Assembly (NCBI GenBank): GCA_903813345.2 | Contig: CAIIXF020000012.1 | Coordinates: 36,312,528-36,376,527 of the forward strand | Length of the DNA stretch: 64,000 nucleotides | Direction: 5' to 3' | Source of the DNA: Owenia fusiformis | Taxonomy: Eukaryota; Annelida; Polychaeta; Sabellida; Oweniidae | Shown: in pieces, positions 1 through 51,000 of the stretch | Position numbering within the stretch: position 1 is the first letter of the stretch | How the letters are laid out: each line of letters starts with the position of its first letter | Notes under the pieces: generated by a model | What the model saw: only the letters and a program-made list of their open reading frames with translations | Databases searched by the model: none | What the model was told of the DNA's origin: nothing | Translations under genes and position numbers: made by a program

Positions 1-486
1 AAAAAACTGTTTCAGATTGCTGATTTTGGAGTGAGCAAAGAGTTCACTTTTAATTTTAATAAATTAAATAATTAAATAAAAAAAACTGTTTCAGATTGCT
101 GATTTTGGAGTGAGCAATGAGTTCACTTTTAATTTTAATAAATTAAATAATTAAATAATAAAACTGTTCCAGATTGCTGATTTTGGAGTGAGCAAAGAGT
201 TCACTTTTAATTTTAATAAATTAAATAATTAAATAAAAAAAACTGTTTCAGATTGCTGATTTTGGAGTGAGCAATGAGTTCACTTTTAATTTTAATAAAT
301 TAAATAATTAAATAATAAAACTGTTCCAGATTGCTGATTTTGGAGTGAGCAATGAGTTCACTTTTAATTTTAATAAATTAAATAATTAAATAATTAAACT
401 GTTCCAGATTGCTGATTTTGGAGTGAGCAAAGAGTTCACTTTTAATTTTAATAAATTAAATAATTAAATAAAAAAAACTGTTTCAG
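1..486 (+). repeat. Tandem array of the acceptor plus first 33 bases of the CAMKK exon at 487
   Basis: About 80-bp units, six copies before the true exon (acceptor-exon joins near 13, 93, 171, 249, 327, 407; real one at 487). The array continues past the left edge. Each unit carries a TTTCAG or TTCCAG acceptor, the exon start encoding IADFGVS(K/N)EFT, and then AT-rich intron that gives an in-frame stop instead of the rest of the exon. Only the last copy runs on into GGAGGAGATG, the real coding sequence. Confidence 0.93.
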
Positions 487-3400
487 ATTGCTGATTTTGG
501 AGTGAGCAATGAGTTCACTGGAGGAGATGCTCTTCTAAGCAGTACTGCTGGAACGCCTGCGTTCATGCCCCCTGAGTCCCTGAAGGATAGCAGGGACACC
601 TACAGTGGCAAGGTCAGTAGAAAGAGGAGAGCTTATTTCTTTTTGGTTCATCTTTACATGGAGAAACATGAAGGTTCTTCTATGAATTCTGGGGTATTTT
701 TGTCAGAAGGAACGTTTTGGAGATTTTTCCAGAGTTTGAAGAGAGATCTTCATTGTAACATGGACTTTTTAGCATTAATTTCATTATTTTTAGTCGATTT
801 CATGTCTAATATCATAGTTATTTTAATGAAACGTAGAAATTTAAATTCATGCAAATCCAGGCATGATTATCAATTGAAAATGATAAGTTATATTTATCAT
901 TTTAGGCGATGGATATCTGGGCCATGGGGGTTACTTTATACTGCTTTCTGATTGGTCGATGTCCCTTCCAAGATGAGTATATCTTGGGACTTCACAAAAA
1001 GATACTCACGGACCCTGTTGTCTTTCCAGAAAAGTAAGTCATTTCCTTTTAGAAATATATCACTGATTTATTCCTACTATAATCATACATGATCTCTTTT
1101 AGGAAAATCAGTTCAAATTCAATTCAATTTCGCCTTCATTTTCCATTAAAGTATTTTATACAAATTGTCACATAGTATCTCAAAATTTAAAATCAAGCAA
1201 ATCTTTACAGTTAAAGGGGTCACAAAGGATATACATGTATTGAAATTGAAACTTTTTGAAAATCTTATAAAAGACAGAGGCATATTTTCAGACAAATAAT
1301 GAATCTGACATTTTACAAACATCATCTATTGCAATTTTAATTTCAAATCTGCTTTTAGCAATAGTAGAAGCCTTCTTTTAAGCTTCTAAAATGTTGACAT
1401 CATAATGTTATTATTTGAGTGCATTTGAACCCATGGGGTATGTGAGGAAAACTATGCAAAGTTGCTAGCAGCATTATTCAAATTGAAATCCTAGTTTTGT
1501 CTGCCAAAATTTGACTCAAAGCTCACACCTATTTTGTGCCATTTCTCTTTCCGATTTGAAAAAAGCATTATTTTCATGCATTTTTTCACACAATCCTGAC
1601 TTAAATCTACATATCTGAGCAATAAATTATTTCTTAATTTCAACAAGTTCACTCTATTTCACAATTCGAAGCATTGCTGTTGTAATATTTCATTTTTGGG
1701 TATAACATGCTCAAATACTATGGAAGTTACACTGTAAGGGTTGGATTAAGTCAATATTGAAATACCTTTATAAAAGCAATTAAGACTTATTAAAAATATT
1801 GGAATTATTTCAAACAAGATTTGAGCTAGCATTGAATTGAACGCATTGTGGTGTCATAGAACGAAAGGAAACAAGCACTAAAGGATTTTAAGAGATTACT
1901 GGACCTTTGGGAACCTATAGGAACAAACATTACTAAATGAAAATATTGTTATAAGACAGAAACTCTTCCTTCAAATTTTCCTCATTTAACATTTCAATAA
2001 ACTATTTTTATAATTGTAAGGATAAAACATAGGCCCCATATACATGTAGGAAGAGATTTTGATGCATTGAGTTTTAATAATTATTTTTAAATAAATTATT
2101 TAAATGGCTTAATTTCCTAGCAAGGGTATGGTTTACTATTAATCATTATCCCCATTATCCCCAAATTCTATTGTTTACTTTGATACATTCACCTGTTCCC
2201 CTGTTCAGCTTTGTATGGTTTCATTCAAAAATTCCAAATACAGAGAGCCTTGGAGCCATAGGTCCTGGATGTATTATTAAAGCTGGACTCCACTCATGAG
2301 GGTAGATAAAGAATAATATGGTGGAAAGATATATATAACTTTCAAAACATTAATATCAAAGTCAAAAGTGATCATTTTTAGTTTGAAATTATATAAGAGT
2401 ACAAATAAGGAGAACCCAACCAATTAAAGATTTAAGGATAGTCTAATTTCTCTAAAAATCTCATTTAGTACAGACTTCGAGACTTCTCATTTTGATGTAT
2501 GGATGATAATAAAATATCTCCAGAGATGTAAACAAAATTATTGGGAGTATACAGATTTACAGAACATTGAATGGATCATGATTATATATAAATAGAGGGC
2601 TAATCTGTTGACAAAACACTCACTTGGACAAAACAAGCATTGGAAGTTGATACAAGCTGAAAACATAGATTGTCAACTGGTTCCATCAGCCTATAGCACA
2701 TATGCAACAAGATATTACTGTAAGAATGTCAAGTTGTGAAGAAACAAAAACTCTCTAATGATCAGAATGTATAATATATGAGAGCATGGGATATTAAATT
2801 AGATATGATAGACTAAAGTAAAGAATAAAAATATAAAATGTGCTAAAATACAACCAATTAAGAGTCAAAAAAGGATTCATATTAGACAGAACATACTACA
2901 GCAAAGAACATAATACCAATGTGAACAGTGATGAAGTTCATTTCATAAAAGAAAGAAATTCATATCACAAAGGACTTCAGACTATTGTAAGGAAAAGAGA
3001 ATTAAATCAATTTGGAAACCTCAATTTTCTCAAACAACATGGGGAACATAATAGCCGCTAGCAATTTTAATCGATTTGGAAAGCGCCATGATGATGACTT
3101 CACAGATCGACTCAGCCACCAGTTCACTTGTGTCCTACTATTGATTTGTACGCTGTTTGTGACGGGAAGACAATACTCTGGTCACCCGATTGATTGTTGG
3201 GTTCCTGAACAGTTTACTTATTCATACAGAAGCTACACACATAGTTTATGTTGGACTAAAAACACATATTACATCCCCACGTATGATAATATTCCCAAAT
3301 CAAGTGAAAAAAGGTCCGACCGAGAGCTTGTGTATTATCAGTGGGTACCGATTATTTTGCTCACGCAGATGGGACTGTTTTTCCTGCCGAGTATCATATG

Positions 3401-48000: not shown

Positions 48001-51000
48001 AAGTACCATAGCAACCTTTTTTTCAGAAATGTTATATGACAAAAAATGTGATTACTTTGAAATTATCTTTTGGTACAATAAAAAGTGAAGTAGTAATACA
48101 CGTGTATGCTGCAAAAGTAAGAAATAGCACATCAAATCTTTTAAAGGCTCAATTAGAAACACATGGGACACTAACCATAATCCATTGCCATGGTGACAGG
48201 TGTTGCCCAAAATACAACAAACCGACTTGATGTATCACAATAACAATACATATAGAGTGGAATTATGGCTAAATTAAAAAATGTAAAGAAGTCATTCACT
48301 GCCATGGAAACCAATATTGCCTAAAATGTGCTTTATGAAAATCTGTTAAAAATCATTTCAGAAACATGCTCCATCGATGGGACCATTTTGCAAATTGGTA
48401 AACGCACAAAAGGACGTAACAAATGTGAGAAAAACTGTAGGTGCACAGTGAAAGGTCTCAAATGTGCTAGGTTGAATTCAAAGAAATGTAGCGAATGTAT
48501 GATTGATGGTGAACTGCATTATGTAGTAAATCTCCTGTATGAGAACAAGACACATAAGTGTGAATGTGATCAAGTGACAAACTCTGCAATATGTAAAGGT
48601 AACTTATATTAGCCAATTACAATTAATAACAGGTTTAAAAGGTACTTACCTTTTGAAAACTCATTTGTATATAATTTTTATTCATTGATTTTTGAGTAAA
48701 ATACAGAAAATATTGTGATTGGCTTGGCTGGGGAATTTGAGTGTATGATTATCAAAATGACATTTTAGTTAATGTCTGGCCAAAGTGGACAAACTGGGGC
48801 ATTTGGGGTTTATGATAATATAAATCACATTTAAGTTAATGTATCGCTAAAGTGGACAAACTTGGGACATTGGGGTTTATGATAATATAAATCACATTTT
48901 AGTTAATATATCGCCAAAGTGGACAAACTTGGGACATTGGGGTTTATGATAATATGAATCACATTTTAGTTAATATCTGGCCAAAGTGGACAAACTGGGG
49001 ACCTTGGGGTTTATGATAATATGAATCACATTTAAGTTTTTTATTGTATCGCTAAAGTGGACAAACTTGGGACATTGGGGTTTATGATAATATAAATCAC
49101 ATTTTAGTTAATATATCGCCAAAGTGGACAAACTTGGGACATTGGGGTTTATGATAATATGAATCACATTTTAGTTAATATATCGCCAAAGTGGACAAAC
49201 TTGGGACATTGGGGTTTATGATAATATGAATCACATTTTAGTTAATATCTGGCCAAAGTGGACAAACTGGGGACCTTGGAGTTTATGACAACATGAATTA
49301 CATTTAAGTTTTTTAATGTCTGGCTAAAGTGGAAAAACTTGGGACATTGGAGTTTATGATAATATGAATCACATTTAAGTTAATGTCTGGCCAAAGTGGA
49401 CAAACTGGGGACATTGGAGTTTATGATTATATGGATCACATTTTAGTTAATGTCTGGCCAAAGTGGACAAACTGGGGACATTGGAGTTTATGATAATATG
49501 AATCACATTTTAGTTAATGTATGGCCAAAGTGGAAAAACTTGGGACATTGGAGTTTATGATAATATGAATCACATTTAAGTTAATGTCTGGCCAAAGTGG
49601 ACAAATTTGGGACATTGGAGTGTATGACAACATGAATTACATTTAAGTTTTTTAATGTCTGGCTAAAGTGGAAAAACTTGGGACATTGGAGTTTATGATA
49701 ATATGAATCACATTTTAGTTAATGTATGGCCAAAGTGGACAAACTGGGGACATTGGAGTTTATGATTATATGGATCACATTTTAGTTTATGTATGGCCAA
49801 AGTGGACAAACTGGGGACATTGGGGTTTATGATAATATGAATCACATTTTAGTTAATGTATGGCCAAAGTGGACAAACTGGGGACATTGGAGTGTATGTA
49901 GCTCTGACCCTGAGGAATGTGGAAAAACAGTCAGACATCGAATGTGTGTTGACAACAAGGGACTACTGAAGGAAGATGATAATTGCTTTGGAGATAATCA
50001 CCAATCTACAGATTGCTGTACACGTAAGTAATTCAGAAAAATATTAAAAGCAGTAAGGGTCATCTTTAGCCACACAGATGTTGTTGGAGATTTCAAAGTT
50101 ACAATTTGGTGGACAATGCCGTAACAAATATATCTATAACTCCTGGAAAGAAGGACATTGTACAAGTATATGCTACATTAACATTTATTATTCTGGGGAT
50201 ACAATGATCAATTTTGCTTCGTGCAATATATCAATAATTAAGATTTTTGTTAACTCAGCTGATCTCGACTTGATTGCAAAAGATGGTTGGCAGAAAATAA
50301 CAAACACTGTCAGTAACCGCAGAAAGAAACGAGGATTGAAAAAAGATCCAAGGACCAAAGTAAAAGAAAGAGAACATTTTTCCTGGATGGTGTCTCTGTC
50401 AATACCTGAGTTTAATAAGGACAATACTATTAACCCAAGTGATCATGTATGTGGGGGTTCCATCCTGAACAAGCACTGGATAATGACTGCAGCACATTGT
50501 GTGTGTTATAAGTCTTGCTGTGATCACAATAATAAAATTAGGTAAATACAAACATATGATATTTATTTTTTCATATATACATAGATTACTATACATTTTT
50601 GATTTTAGGGTACATGATGTTAGCAAATGTATAAGATTAGTGTTATTTCCTCATTGAAATAAACATTTTATTTCAATTTTGTATTGATATCCTCTTTATT
50701 TTAAGTGTTTACATGTATATGTATATTCGTATGCAAAATAATTGTTTTAGTTGTGATATCACAAACTGGAAAGTAAATACAGGAATATTGATATTGGACA
50801 AATTTACGGGGAACCACACACATAAAGTTGTAGAGGTAATGGTACTTTTAATACAAATTATTTAGTAGTGCTATCAATTTATCATTAATGCAAATATATT
50901 TTACAGCAAGTAGATAATACACATATGTTTATTTATAGAACACACCAAAACCTGCCCATTCCACTTTTATATAAAATTTTGATTAAAGGTTATCATCCAT

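Follow-up and report, generated by a model that had tools for sequence, protein, structure and literature searches.

Tandem arrays over exon edges in the annelid Owenia fusiformis: very probably mirage minisatellites tolerated beside an intact exon copy

Several exons in a 64,000-nucleotide stretch of contig CAIIXF020000012.1 of Owenia fusiformis (the window; positions 36,312,528 to 36,376,527) are preceded by tandem copies of their own 3' splice site and first bases. Does this arrangement reflect a process directed at acceptors, a role in splicing, or the ordinary turnover of minisatellites that happen to lie across an exon border? An earlier note on this DNA had listed five such arrays, and all five are present in TRF output or in the sequence; the list was incomplete, and a sixth array over a signal-peptide exon (46455-47357) had been overlooked. 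The features of the window, numbered from its first letter, are as follows.

1-486, + strand: right-hand part of the CAMKK array, 78-79 bp unit, preceding exon 487-612 (TRF, sequence)
487-612, + strand: intact CAMKK exon, DFG motif region
29514-31863, + strand: GAREM-like A exon 4 array, 134 bp unit, 17 acceptors; intact exon 31755-31922 (TRF, sequence)
36744-37144, + strand: GAREM-like B exon 2 array, 132 bp unit, 3 acceptors; intact exon 37111-37243 (TRF, sequence)
40262-40620, + strand: GAREM-like B exon 4 array, 108/143 bp spacing, 3 acceptors; intact exon 40555-40725
42214-42687, + strand: GAREM-like B last-exon array, 96 bp unit over the stop codon and 3' UTR
46455-47357, + strand: signal-peptide exon array, 115 bp x 8 copies (TRF)
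48731-49898, + strand: protease TSP1 exon array, 67/71 bp, 17 acceptors; intact exon 49853-50023 (TRF, sequence)

The CAMKK gene matches CAMKK1/2 in PDB (E 3e-14). Domain matches in the window include a SAM domain (1.2e-5) and TSP_1 (2.7e-4, narrowly under its cut-off), together with weak matches to CABIT (0.0098) and Trypsin (0.089), both below cut-offs. The name GAREM for GAREM-like A and B is a provisional designation.

In the exon-start arrays of the window the unit runs from the intron tail through the acceptor into the start of the exon, and it is the 3'-most copy that continues into the whole exon. Read by eye, the exonic and intronic parts of the unit measure about 32+46 bases in CAMKK, 109+25 in GAREM-like A exon 4, 33+99 and 66+42 in GAREM-like B exons 2 and 4, and about 40+27 in the protease TSP1 exon. 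As tandem repeats the window arrays lie far outside what chance would give (TRF scores 403 to 4455). At 487 and 40555 the exon start called by the gene finder coincides with an array acceptor; where it chose 31700, 37119 and 49902, intact starts were taken as 31755, 37111 and 49853, judged by eye with the recurring AG and the open frame as guides. For GAREM-like B exon 4 the TRF row stops at 40503, and the third copy was read by eye. The CAMKK array extends to the left past the window start (full span about C12:36311101-36313046) and has 25 acceptors including the authentic one, i.e. 24 decoys, so the number of acceptors per array, authentic site counted, ranges from 3 to 25 among the five noted arrays and not from 3 to 17 as first reported.

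Two further arrays of the window are absent from the earlier list. The unit at 46455-47357 is the entire 90-base signal-peptide exon (the first coding exon) plus 25 bases, with an acceptor-like site, the whole exon and a GT in each copy; the last copy (47264-47353) runs into a likely donor, GTATGT. This exon was read by eye, and the gene finder made no call there. The last-exon array of GAREM-like B (42214-42687) has mirror-image polarity, its intact copy being the first one.

Arrays of the same construction were found elsewhere in the genome. The 34 gene regions outside the window contained six acceptor-side arrays (L035 twice, L036, L048 with three diverged copies, L049 and L050) and five donor-side arrays (L029, L035, L038, L049 and a CHK1-like gene). 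The CHK1-like gene has at least 41 successive units and its intact end was not reached; we infer the donor side from the donor site in every unit and the downstream exon. One exon outside the window is flanked by both an acceptor-side and a donor-side array. In total there are 17 exon-edge arrays in 11 genes, on five large contigs (C4, C5, C7, C10 and C12), and conserved myosin, MCM and kinase genes are among those affected. Throughout, head-to-tail units span an exon-intron boundary with the AG/GT signals kept and, wherever the sequence read extends to it, the full exon intact at one end. Either boundary is affected genome-wide, whereas the window holds only exon starts and the one stop-codon array; the proposal that the intact exon is always the 3'-most copy holds for the exon-start arrays of the window and fails in the wider genome. 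Unit spacing is 41 to 143 bp in 16 of the 17 arrays and 260 bp in the remaining one (L035 6432), and the intron part of the unit is 19-46 bases long in eight of ten acceptor arrays measured by eye. The units of two arrays, 46455-47357 and L036, each comprise a complete exon bounded by a splice site on both sides, with spacers of 25 and about 19 bases, respectively, between the copies. Region L055, picked because two kinase matches to one part of the profile sat close together, proved to contain two related kinase exons and is excluded from all counts; L028 575-1447 is a different kind of repeat that ends at a doubtful exon and is likewise uncounted.

When the genome was searched with units from three of the 17 arrays (a search that passes over simple repeats and highly frequent words), strong matches were limited to each unit's own locus. 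A dispersed repeat or introner was thus not detected for these three, in agreement with the earlier suggestion of a recurrent local process rather than one mobile repeat. No new intron inside a former exon was seen in the arrays read, which sit in introns beside whole exons.

If the process were aimed at exon borders, arrays should be more frequent there than expected by chance. Sample exons had to reach 50 bases and a codon score of 4 in our own gene finder. Before counting, L032 8745, L045 21, L007 976 and region L018 (the orientation used gave no exon) were removed, the L034 exon ending at 3205 was kept for its donor alone, L035 6504 was moved to 6432, and L038 4054, which is real and below the score threshold, was added. 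Seven of the 25 short myosin loci were used; 17 overlap longer stretches and one is the dropped L018. In 28 of the 34 regions, 4 of 200 acceptors are crossed by an array (15.4 expected under random shifting), as are 3 of 203 donors (15.7 expected), and none of 5000 shifts gave border crossings as low as those observed. Enrichment at exon borders is therefore rejected in this sample; the shift test keeps array lengths and is blind to selection, so it shows the absence of enrichment and not its cause. Among 45 window exons, hand-picked from gene-finder output with several starts set by eye (for the 15 on the minus strand the gene finder was the sole basis), 6 of 39 acceptors are crossed versus 6.8 expected and 0 of 41 donors versus 7.2 expected by shifting, a null that counts TRF arrays only, the GAREM-like B exon 4 array having been added by eye.

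The polarity seen in the window, six acceptor-side to no donor-side arrays, has a two-sided binomial p of 0.031. The near-equal numbers among the 11 arrays outside it reject an acceptor-only rule and do not bear out the acceptor preference proposed before. L036 was not a blind case, because it was fetched after L021 showed an array at its edge; without it, the sample stands at three to three. The window differs from the rest with p 0.10, and all data together (12 acceptor-side, 5 donor-side) give p 0.14, so there may be a mild acceptor bias in array placement. Array coverage amounts to 9% in the sampled sequence and to 18% in the window, and at such coverage some arrays must meet exon borders. 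The farther a region lies from the chromosome end, the lower its coverage tends to be (Spearman -0.43, p 0.021, 28 regions, post hoc). Six extra regions less than 1 Mb from an end, chosen from at least nine places with kinase matches that near to one, have 22% coverage compared with 9% in 26 inner regions (L040 and L048, which fall inside the same 1 Mb limit and have coverage of 2.6% and 16.2%, were excluded), a borderline difference (one-sided p 0.051). Their 21 acceptors and 20 donors were hand-picked, several starts by eye, and the CHK1-like donor array is outside the 20 donors because its intact exon was not reached. Minisatellite turnover is perhaps denser near chromosome ends.

The copies themselves are informative as well. 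In decoy units of five arrays pooled, 136 of 5246 exonic and 55 of 2183 intronic letters varied, that is, the two parts vary alike; in single arrays the exonic and intronic values are 1.3% versus 3.0% (CAMKK), 3.1% versus 0% (L036) and 1.6% versus 0% (46455-47357). Changes in L036 lean synonymous (49, versus 29 non-synonymous), as if its copies were or had been coding, and four arrays pooled have 64 synonymous to 93 non-synonymous changes. Over 58 sites in L049, three decoys show 0-1 differences between one another, against 11 that separate them from the true exon; these decoys are homogenized among themselves and released from the constraint on the exon. When translation is started at a decoy acceptor and the true exon's frame is kept, a stop comes ahead of the following acceptor in 72 of 74 cases (six arrays). 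Stops are likewise common in the other frames of the three arrays so read (GAREM-like B exon 2, TSP1 and L036), and selection of stop codons as a fail-safe is thus unsupported.

Taken together, we consider it very probable that the exon-edge arrays are 'mirage' minisatellites produced by ordinary local turnover and tolerated since one intact copy remains. They are most likely a by-product of a repeat-rich genome, not aimed at splice sites, and of the origins put forward in the earlier note the mutational one is supported as the likeliest. A short local tandem duplication would have chanced to span an exon-intron border, and the array would then have grown and shrunk by slippage or unequal exchange, as any minisatellite may. 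Its survival would depend on a single copy that remains attached to the body of the exon, namely the 3'-most copy in arrays over an acceptor and the 5'-most in arrays over a donor; the remaining copies would come to lie within the intron. Most likely the spliceosome picks, by exon definition, the copy adjoining the full exon; where a decoy is now and then used, translation would mostly run into a stop codon, and the product would be removed by nonsense-mediated decay.

Mirage minisatellites were described in amphioxus, where they duplicate either exon boundary in Adh3, the globins BflGb6 and BflGb9 and troponin C, and imperfectly in PGBD5, with units of 10-72, 150-160 and 157 bp; their traits include length polymorphism, somatic instability and concerted evolution that spares the boundary copy, and they are reported to leave regular splicing undisturbed (PMC3087553, PMC3902484). 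The Owenia arrays share with them boundary-spanning tandem units at either exon edge, many keeping AG/GT, and unit sizes of the same order, and the escape of the cluster-edge copy from homogenization has its likeness in L049. They differ in their host, an annelid instead of a cephalochordate; its genome has about twelve large contigs, its innexin gene suits an annelid, and a search with COX1 for mitochondrial sequence found no match. Copy number is also higher, with 25 acceptors in the CAMKK array and at least 41 units in the CHK1-like one. Minisatellites at exon-intron boundaries are also known from human segmental-duplication genes (PMC2812944), but there they are reported to change splicing or give rise to new introns in recent paralogues, whereas the Owenia host genes include conserved ones. 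The Rogers model, as cited in PMC3087553, similarly involves duplicated sequence with splice signals; in the form given there it explains intron gain by tandem duplication with AG/GT, whereas the Owenia copies lie in an existing intron. In another annelid, exon-4 duplicates of earthworm metallothionein are absent from the final transcript and minisatellites lie in an intron, but arrays over a splice site, as in Owenia, are not described in the portion of that account drawn on here (PMC12783039). What is new here is the host, Owenia fusiformis, and the frequency of the arrays.

Several other explanations have to be weighed against this one. The arrays could act in splicing, with decoy acceptors or donors competing with the true site and array length setting the amount of productive mRNA. 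Decoys do match authentic sites in strength: by a generic matrix, 86 of the 97 decoys of ten acceptor arrays equal or exceed the authentic acceptor (L050, whose boundary was misplaced, is not counted). In CAMKK all 24 decoys, which lie within 2 kb, do so. Moreover, none of 154 decoy AG letters is changed (chance 0.018 at the average rate), a count that is biased because the search patterns required those AGs and on which we therefore do not rely. Near-identical scores are, however, expected from recent copying, exonic parts of decoys are as variable as intronic ones when pooled, arrays sit in unrelated genes, and the amphioxus mirages do not disturb splicing as far as reported. We regard such a role as very improbable, and likewise its most specific form, in which the arrays are variable-length splicing rheostats where equal sites compete, decoy use hits a stop and allele length tunes mRNA, while in whole-exon arrays any of 8 to 15 copies serves.

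It is highly unlikely that a mutational process targets acceptors, for example through breaks or template switching tied to splicing or to branch-point structures. The six-to-zero polarity in the window and the short intron parts of the units would fit such targeting, but the arrays outside the window already point to equal counts, borders in the sample carry fewer arrays than under random shifting, and one array covers a stop codon. Assembly is difficult where near-identical units are strung into long arrays, and copy numbers could have been inflated or arrays mis-joined; units of five aligned arrays nevertheless carry substitutions at scattered positions and vary slightly in length, and the pattern recurs across 11 genes on five contigs, which leaves very little room for an assembly artefact. 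The least probable explanation, in our estimate, is that these are clusters of alternative or mutually exclusive exons. The two whole-exon arrays with a site at either end would suit it, but the copies are near identical and the spacers very short, and all other units are partial and lack the second splice site; the complete, diverged exons that define mutually exclusive clusters were not found among the arrays.

Mirage minisatellites are thus extended from amphioxus to an annelid, and their presence in both suggests that repeat-rich genomes may harbour them generally. They may constitute a standing source of exon-border mutations, and they are a trap for gene annotation. Arrays such as those in CAMKK, with its 24 decoys, and in the CHK1-like gene are natural splice-site competition experiments, which bear on whether exon definition, distance or order sets the choice of site and on how much waste is tolerated.

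The five exon-edge arrays reported in the earlier note are real and were well described there, as judged by TRF and direct reading. Each unit joins the last 25-99 intron bases, ending in AG, to the first 32-109 exon bases, and the last copy of every array continues into the remaining exon. The CAMKK array extends beyond the left edge of the window. Pattern counts give 25 acceptors for the CAMKK exon, 17 for exon 4 of the first GAREM-like gene (A), three each for exons 2 and 4 of the second (B) and 17 for the TSP1 exon of the protease; thus, of the range of 3 to 17 per exon previously claimed, the lower bound holds and the upper one does not. 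Further arrays were found in the window as follows.

Additional tandem arrays in the window
46455-47357: sixth array, missing from the earlier note; 8 copies, each holding a 90-base first coding exon that encodes a signal peptide, together with another 25 bases
42214-42687: seventh array; 96 bp unit at the 3' end of the second GAREM-like gene, covering its stop codon and 3' UTR
24639: near a donor, which it excludes; 42 bp x 8, starting at about the 14th intron base (TRF)
35490: near a donor, which it excludes; 34 bp x 23, starting at about the 6th intron base (TRF)

The statement that the intact copy is always the most 3' one is correct for the five exon-start arrays but not for the stop-codon array (42214-42687), where the first (5') copy is intact.

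Gene models come from a purpose-written, splice-aware gene finder with clear exons as its training set, which recovered coding exons for every gene previously named. For the array exons at 31755, 37111 and 49853, three of the five, it picked another nearby start, and starts there were set by eye; the signal-peptide exon is also a by-eye reading. CAMKK was identified from a PDB match and the remaining domains from Pfam. An open, intronless innexin gene (3036-4385; full-profile match, E 2.5e-95) sits between exons of CAMKK and has the same orientation. Five similar first-exon-like frames, each ending in a donor (18929-19138, 20356-20565, 23008-23198, 24421-24625 and 35278-35484), sit ahead of and between the GAREM-like genes and may be first exons that were duplicated or what is left of gene copies. 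Elsewhere in the assembly, twelve matches to the same part of the myosin head profile (about 18-84) are spaced 0.3-1.9 kb apart at C9:37986009-37994334, perhaps an alternative-exon cluster of a muscle myosin gene. Two related kinase exons, paralogous or alternative, match the same profile part with starts 0.2 kb apart at C10:2255300-2259300.

The assembly comprises 498 Mb in 525 contigs. The window, C12:36312528-36376527, is separated from an end of this 36.7 Mb contig by about 0.33 Mb. Search matches fall mostly on contigs C1-C12, with few on small contigs; 11 of these 12 large contigs were measured, at 31.9-62.2 Mb. For Owenia fusiformis, a genome paper reports an assembly of 505.8 Mb with a repeat content of 43% and 12 scaffolds at chromosome scale (PMC9977687).

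Tandem-array coverage may be higher near chromosome ends. It falls with growing distance from the end across 28 sampled regions (Spearman -0.43, p 0.021), namely 14 myosin gene stretches, seven MCM gene stretches and seven of 25 short myosin loci, all chosen without prior sight of arrays except L036, whose array was known before fetching. The second set, six kinase regions (L049-L054) less than 1 Mb from an end, picked from the match list before their arrays were seen, gave a borderline result: 22% coverage versus 9% in 26 inner regions (one-sided p 0.051), with one of the six free of any array. These six regions contributed four additional exon-edge arrays.

Exon-edge arrays in regions near chromosome ends
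L049 (two arrays, on both sides of a single exon): acceptor-side, 86 bp x 4 copies; donor-side, 71 bp x 2 copies
L050: acceptor-side, 80 bp, about 10 copies
C10:725000-732350 (L054, L056 and L057): kinase gene that we take, from its peptide, to be CHK1-like; 69 bp unit, at least 41.6 copies, the 5' end lying beyond the stretch read

The CHK1-like unit carries a strong donor, AG|GTAAGG, in 19 of 21 scored copies, and its reading frame is preserved across units, one shorter copy excepted.

The earlier note had proposed comparing arrays at acceptors with those at donors and at shuffled positions. Arrays cross 4 of 200 acceptors (L035 4032 and 6432, L036 1721, L048 8527) and 3 of 203 donors (L029 8402, L035 2337, L038 4185) in the 28 regions, where random shifts of the arrays predict 15.4 and 15.7, respectively; all 5000 shifts gave higher values. 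Within the window, 6 of 39 acceptors are crossed versus 6.8 expected (P of so low a value 0.47) and 0 of 41 donors versus 7.2 expected (P 0.002). Because counts are at or below expectation in both settings, with no border excess, arrays show no preference for exon borders. Their scarcity at borders outside the window is what selection on exons would be expected to produce. The acceptor polarity, the earlier note's most striking claim, is a property of the window and, judged by 11 further arrays, does not extend to the genome: these divide into six acceptor-side and five donor-side, the CHK1-like array being probably donor-side, and inclusion of the window brings the tally to 12 versus 5 (p 0.14).

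The claim that the arrays are not one mobile repeat was borne out for the three of 17 arrays whose units (CAMKK, GAREM-like A exon 4 and TSP1) were searched against the genome: strong matches were confined to the own locus, in a search that ignores simple repeats and very common words. Four weak off-locus matches of the CAMKK query concern bases 634-703, past the exon.

In 86 of 97 cases a decoy acceptor equals or exceeds the authentic site in score (ten acceptor arrays, generic matrix; L050 was excluded, its boundary being shifted), and therefore strength cannot account for the choice of the last copy. The likeliest rule would be exon definition by the downstream donor. In six arrays, 72 of 74 readings onward from a decoy reach a stop ahead of the following acceptor, stops being frequent also in the other frames examined; in four donor arrays a stop lies 1-57 bases beyond the authentic donor. 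Pooled over five arrays, decoy units vary by 2.6% in exon parts and 2.5% in intron parts, with individual arrays tilting both ways. L049 decoys are mutually alike, and 11 of 58 sites set them apart from the true exon. This is how untranslated, homogenised copies adjoining a constrained exon should look. The exception is L036 (1-1827), where whole-exon myosin copies differ from the true exon by 49 synonymous and 29 other changes; these copies are perhaps in use now, or were formerly.

Tandem repeats whose unit spans an exon-intron boundary are known from amphioxus as mirage minisatellites, the original paper reportedly having appeared in Nucleic Acids Research in 2002. Either exon boundary can be affected there, with splicing apparently undisturbed (PMC3087553), and the PGBD5 paper adds more amphioxus genes and reports that the duplicated sites in Adh and troponin C give rise to no aberrant mRNAs (PMC3902484). 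Two other papers describe altered splicing with human tandem repeats at exon-intron boundaries (PMC2812944) and exon-4 duplications missing from transcripts of earthworm metallothionein genes (PMC12783039). No mirages in annelids were reported in the literature searched, whose coverage leaves out most subscription journals. With 17 exon-edge arrays across 11 genes in the window and sampled regions, the Owenia arrays are frequent and of this known kind, in a host phylum that is probably new for it.
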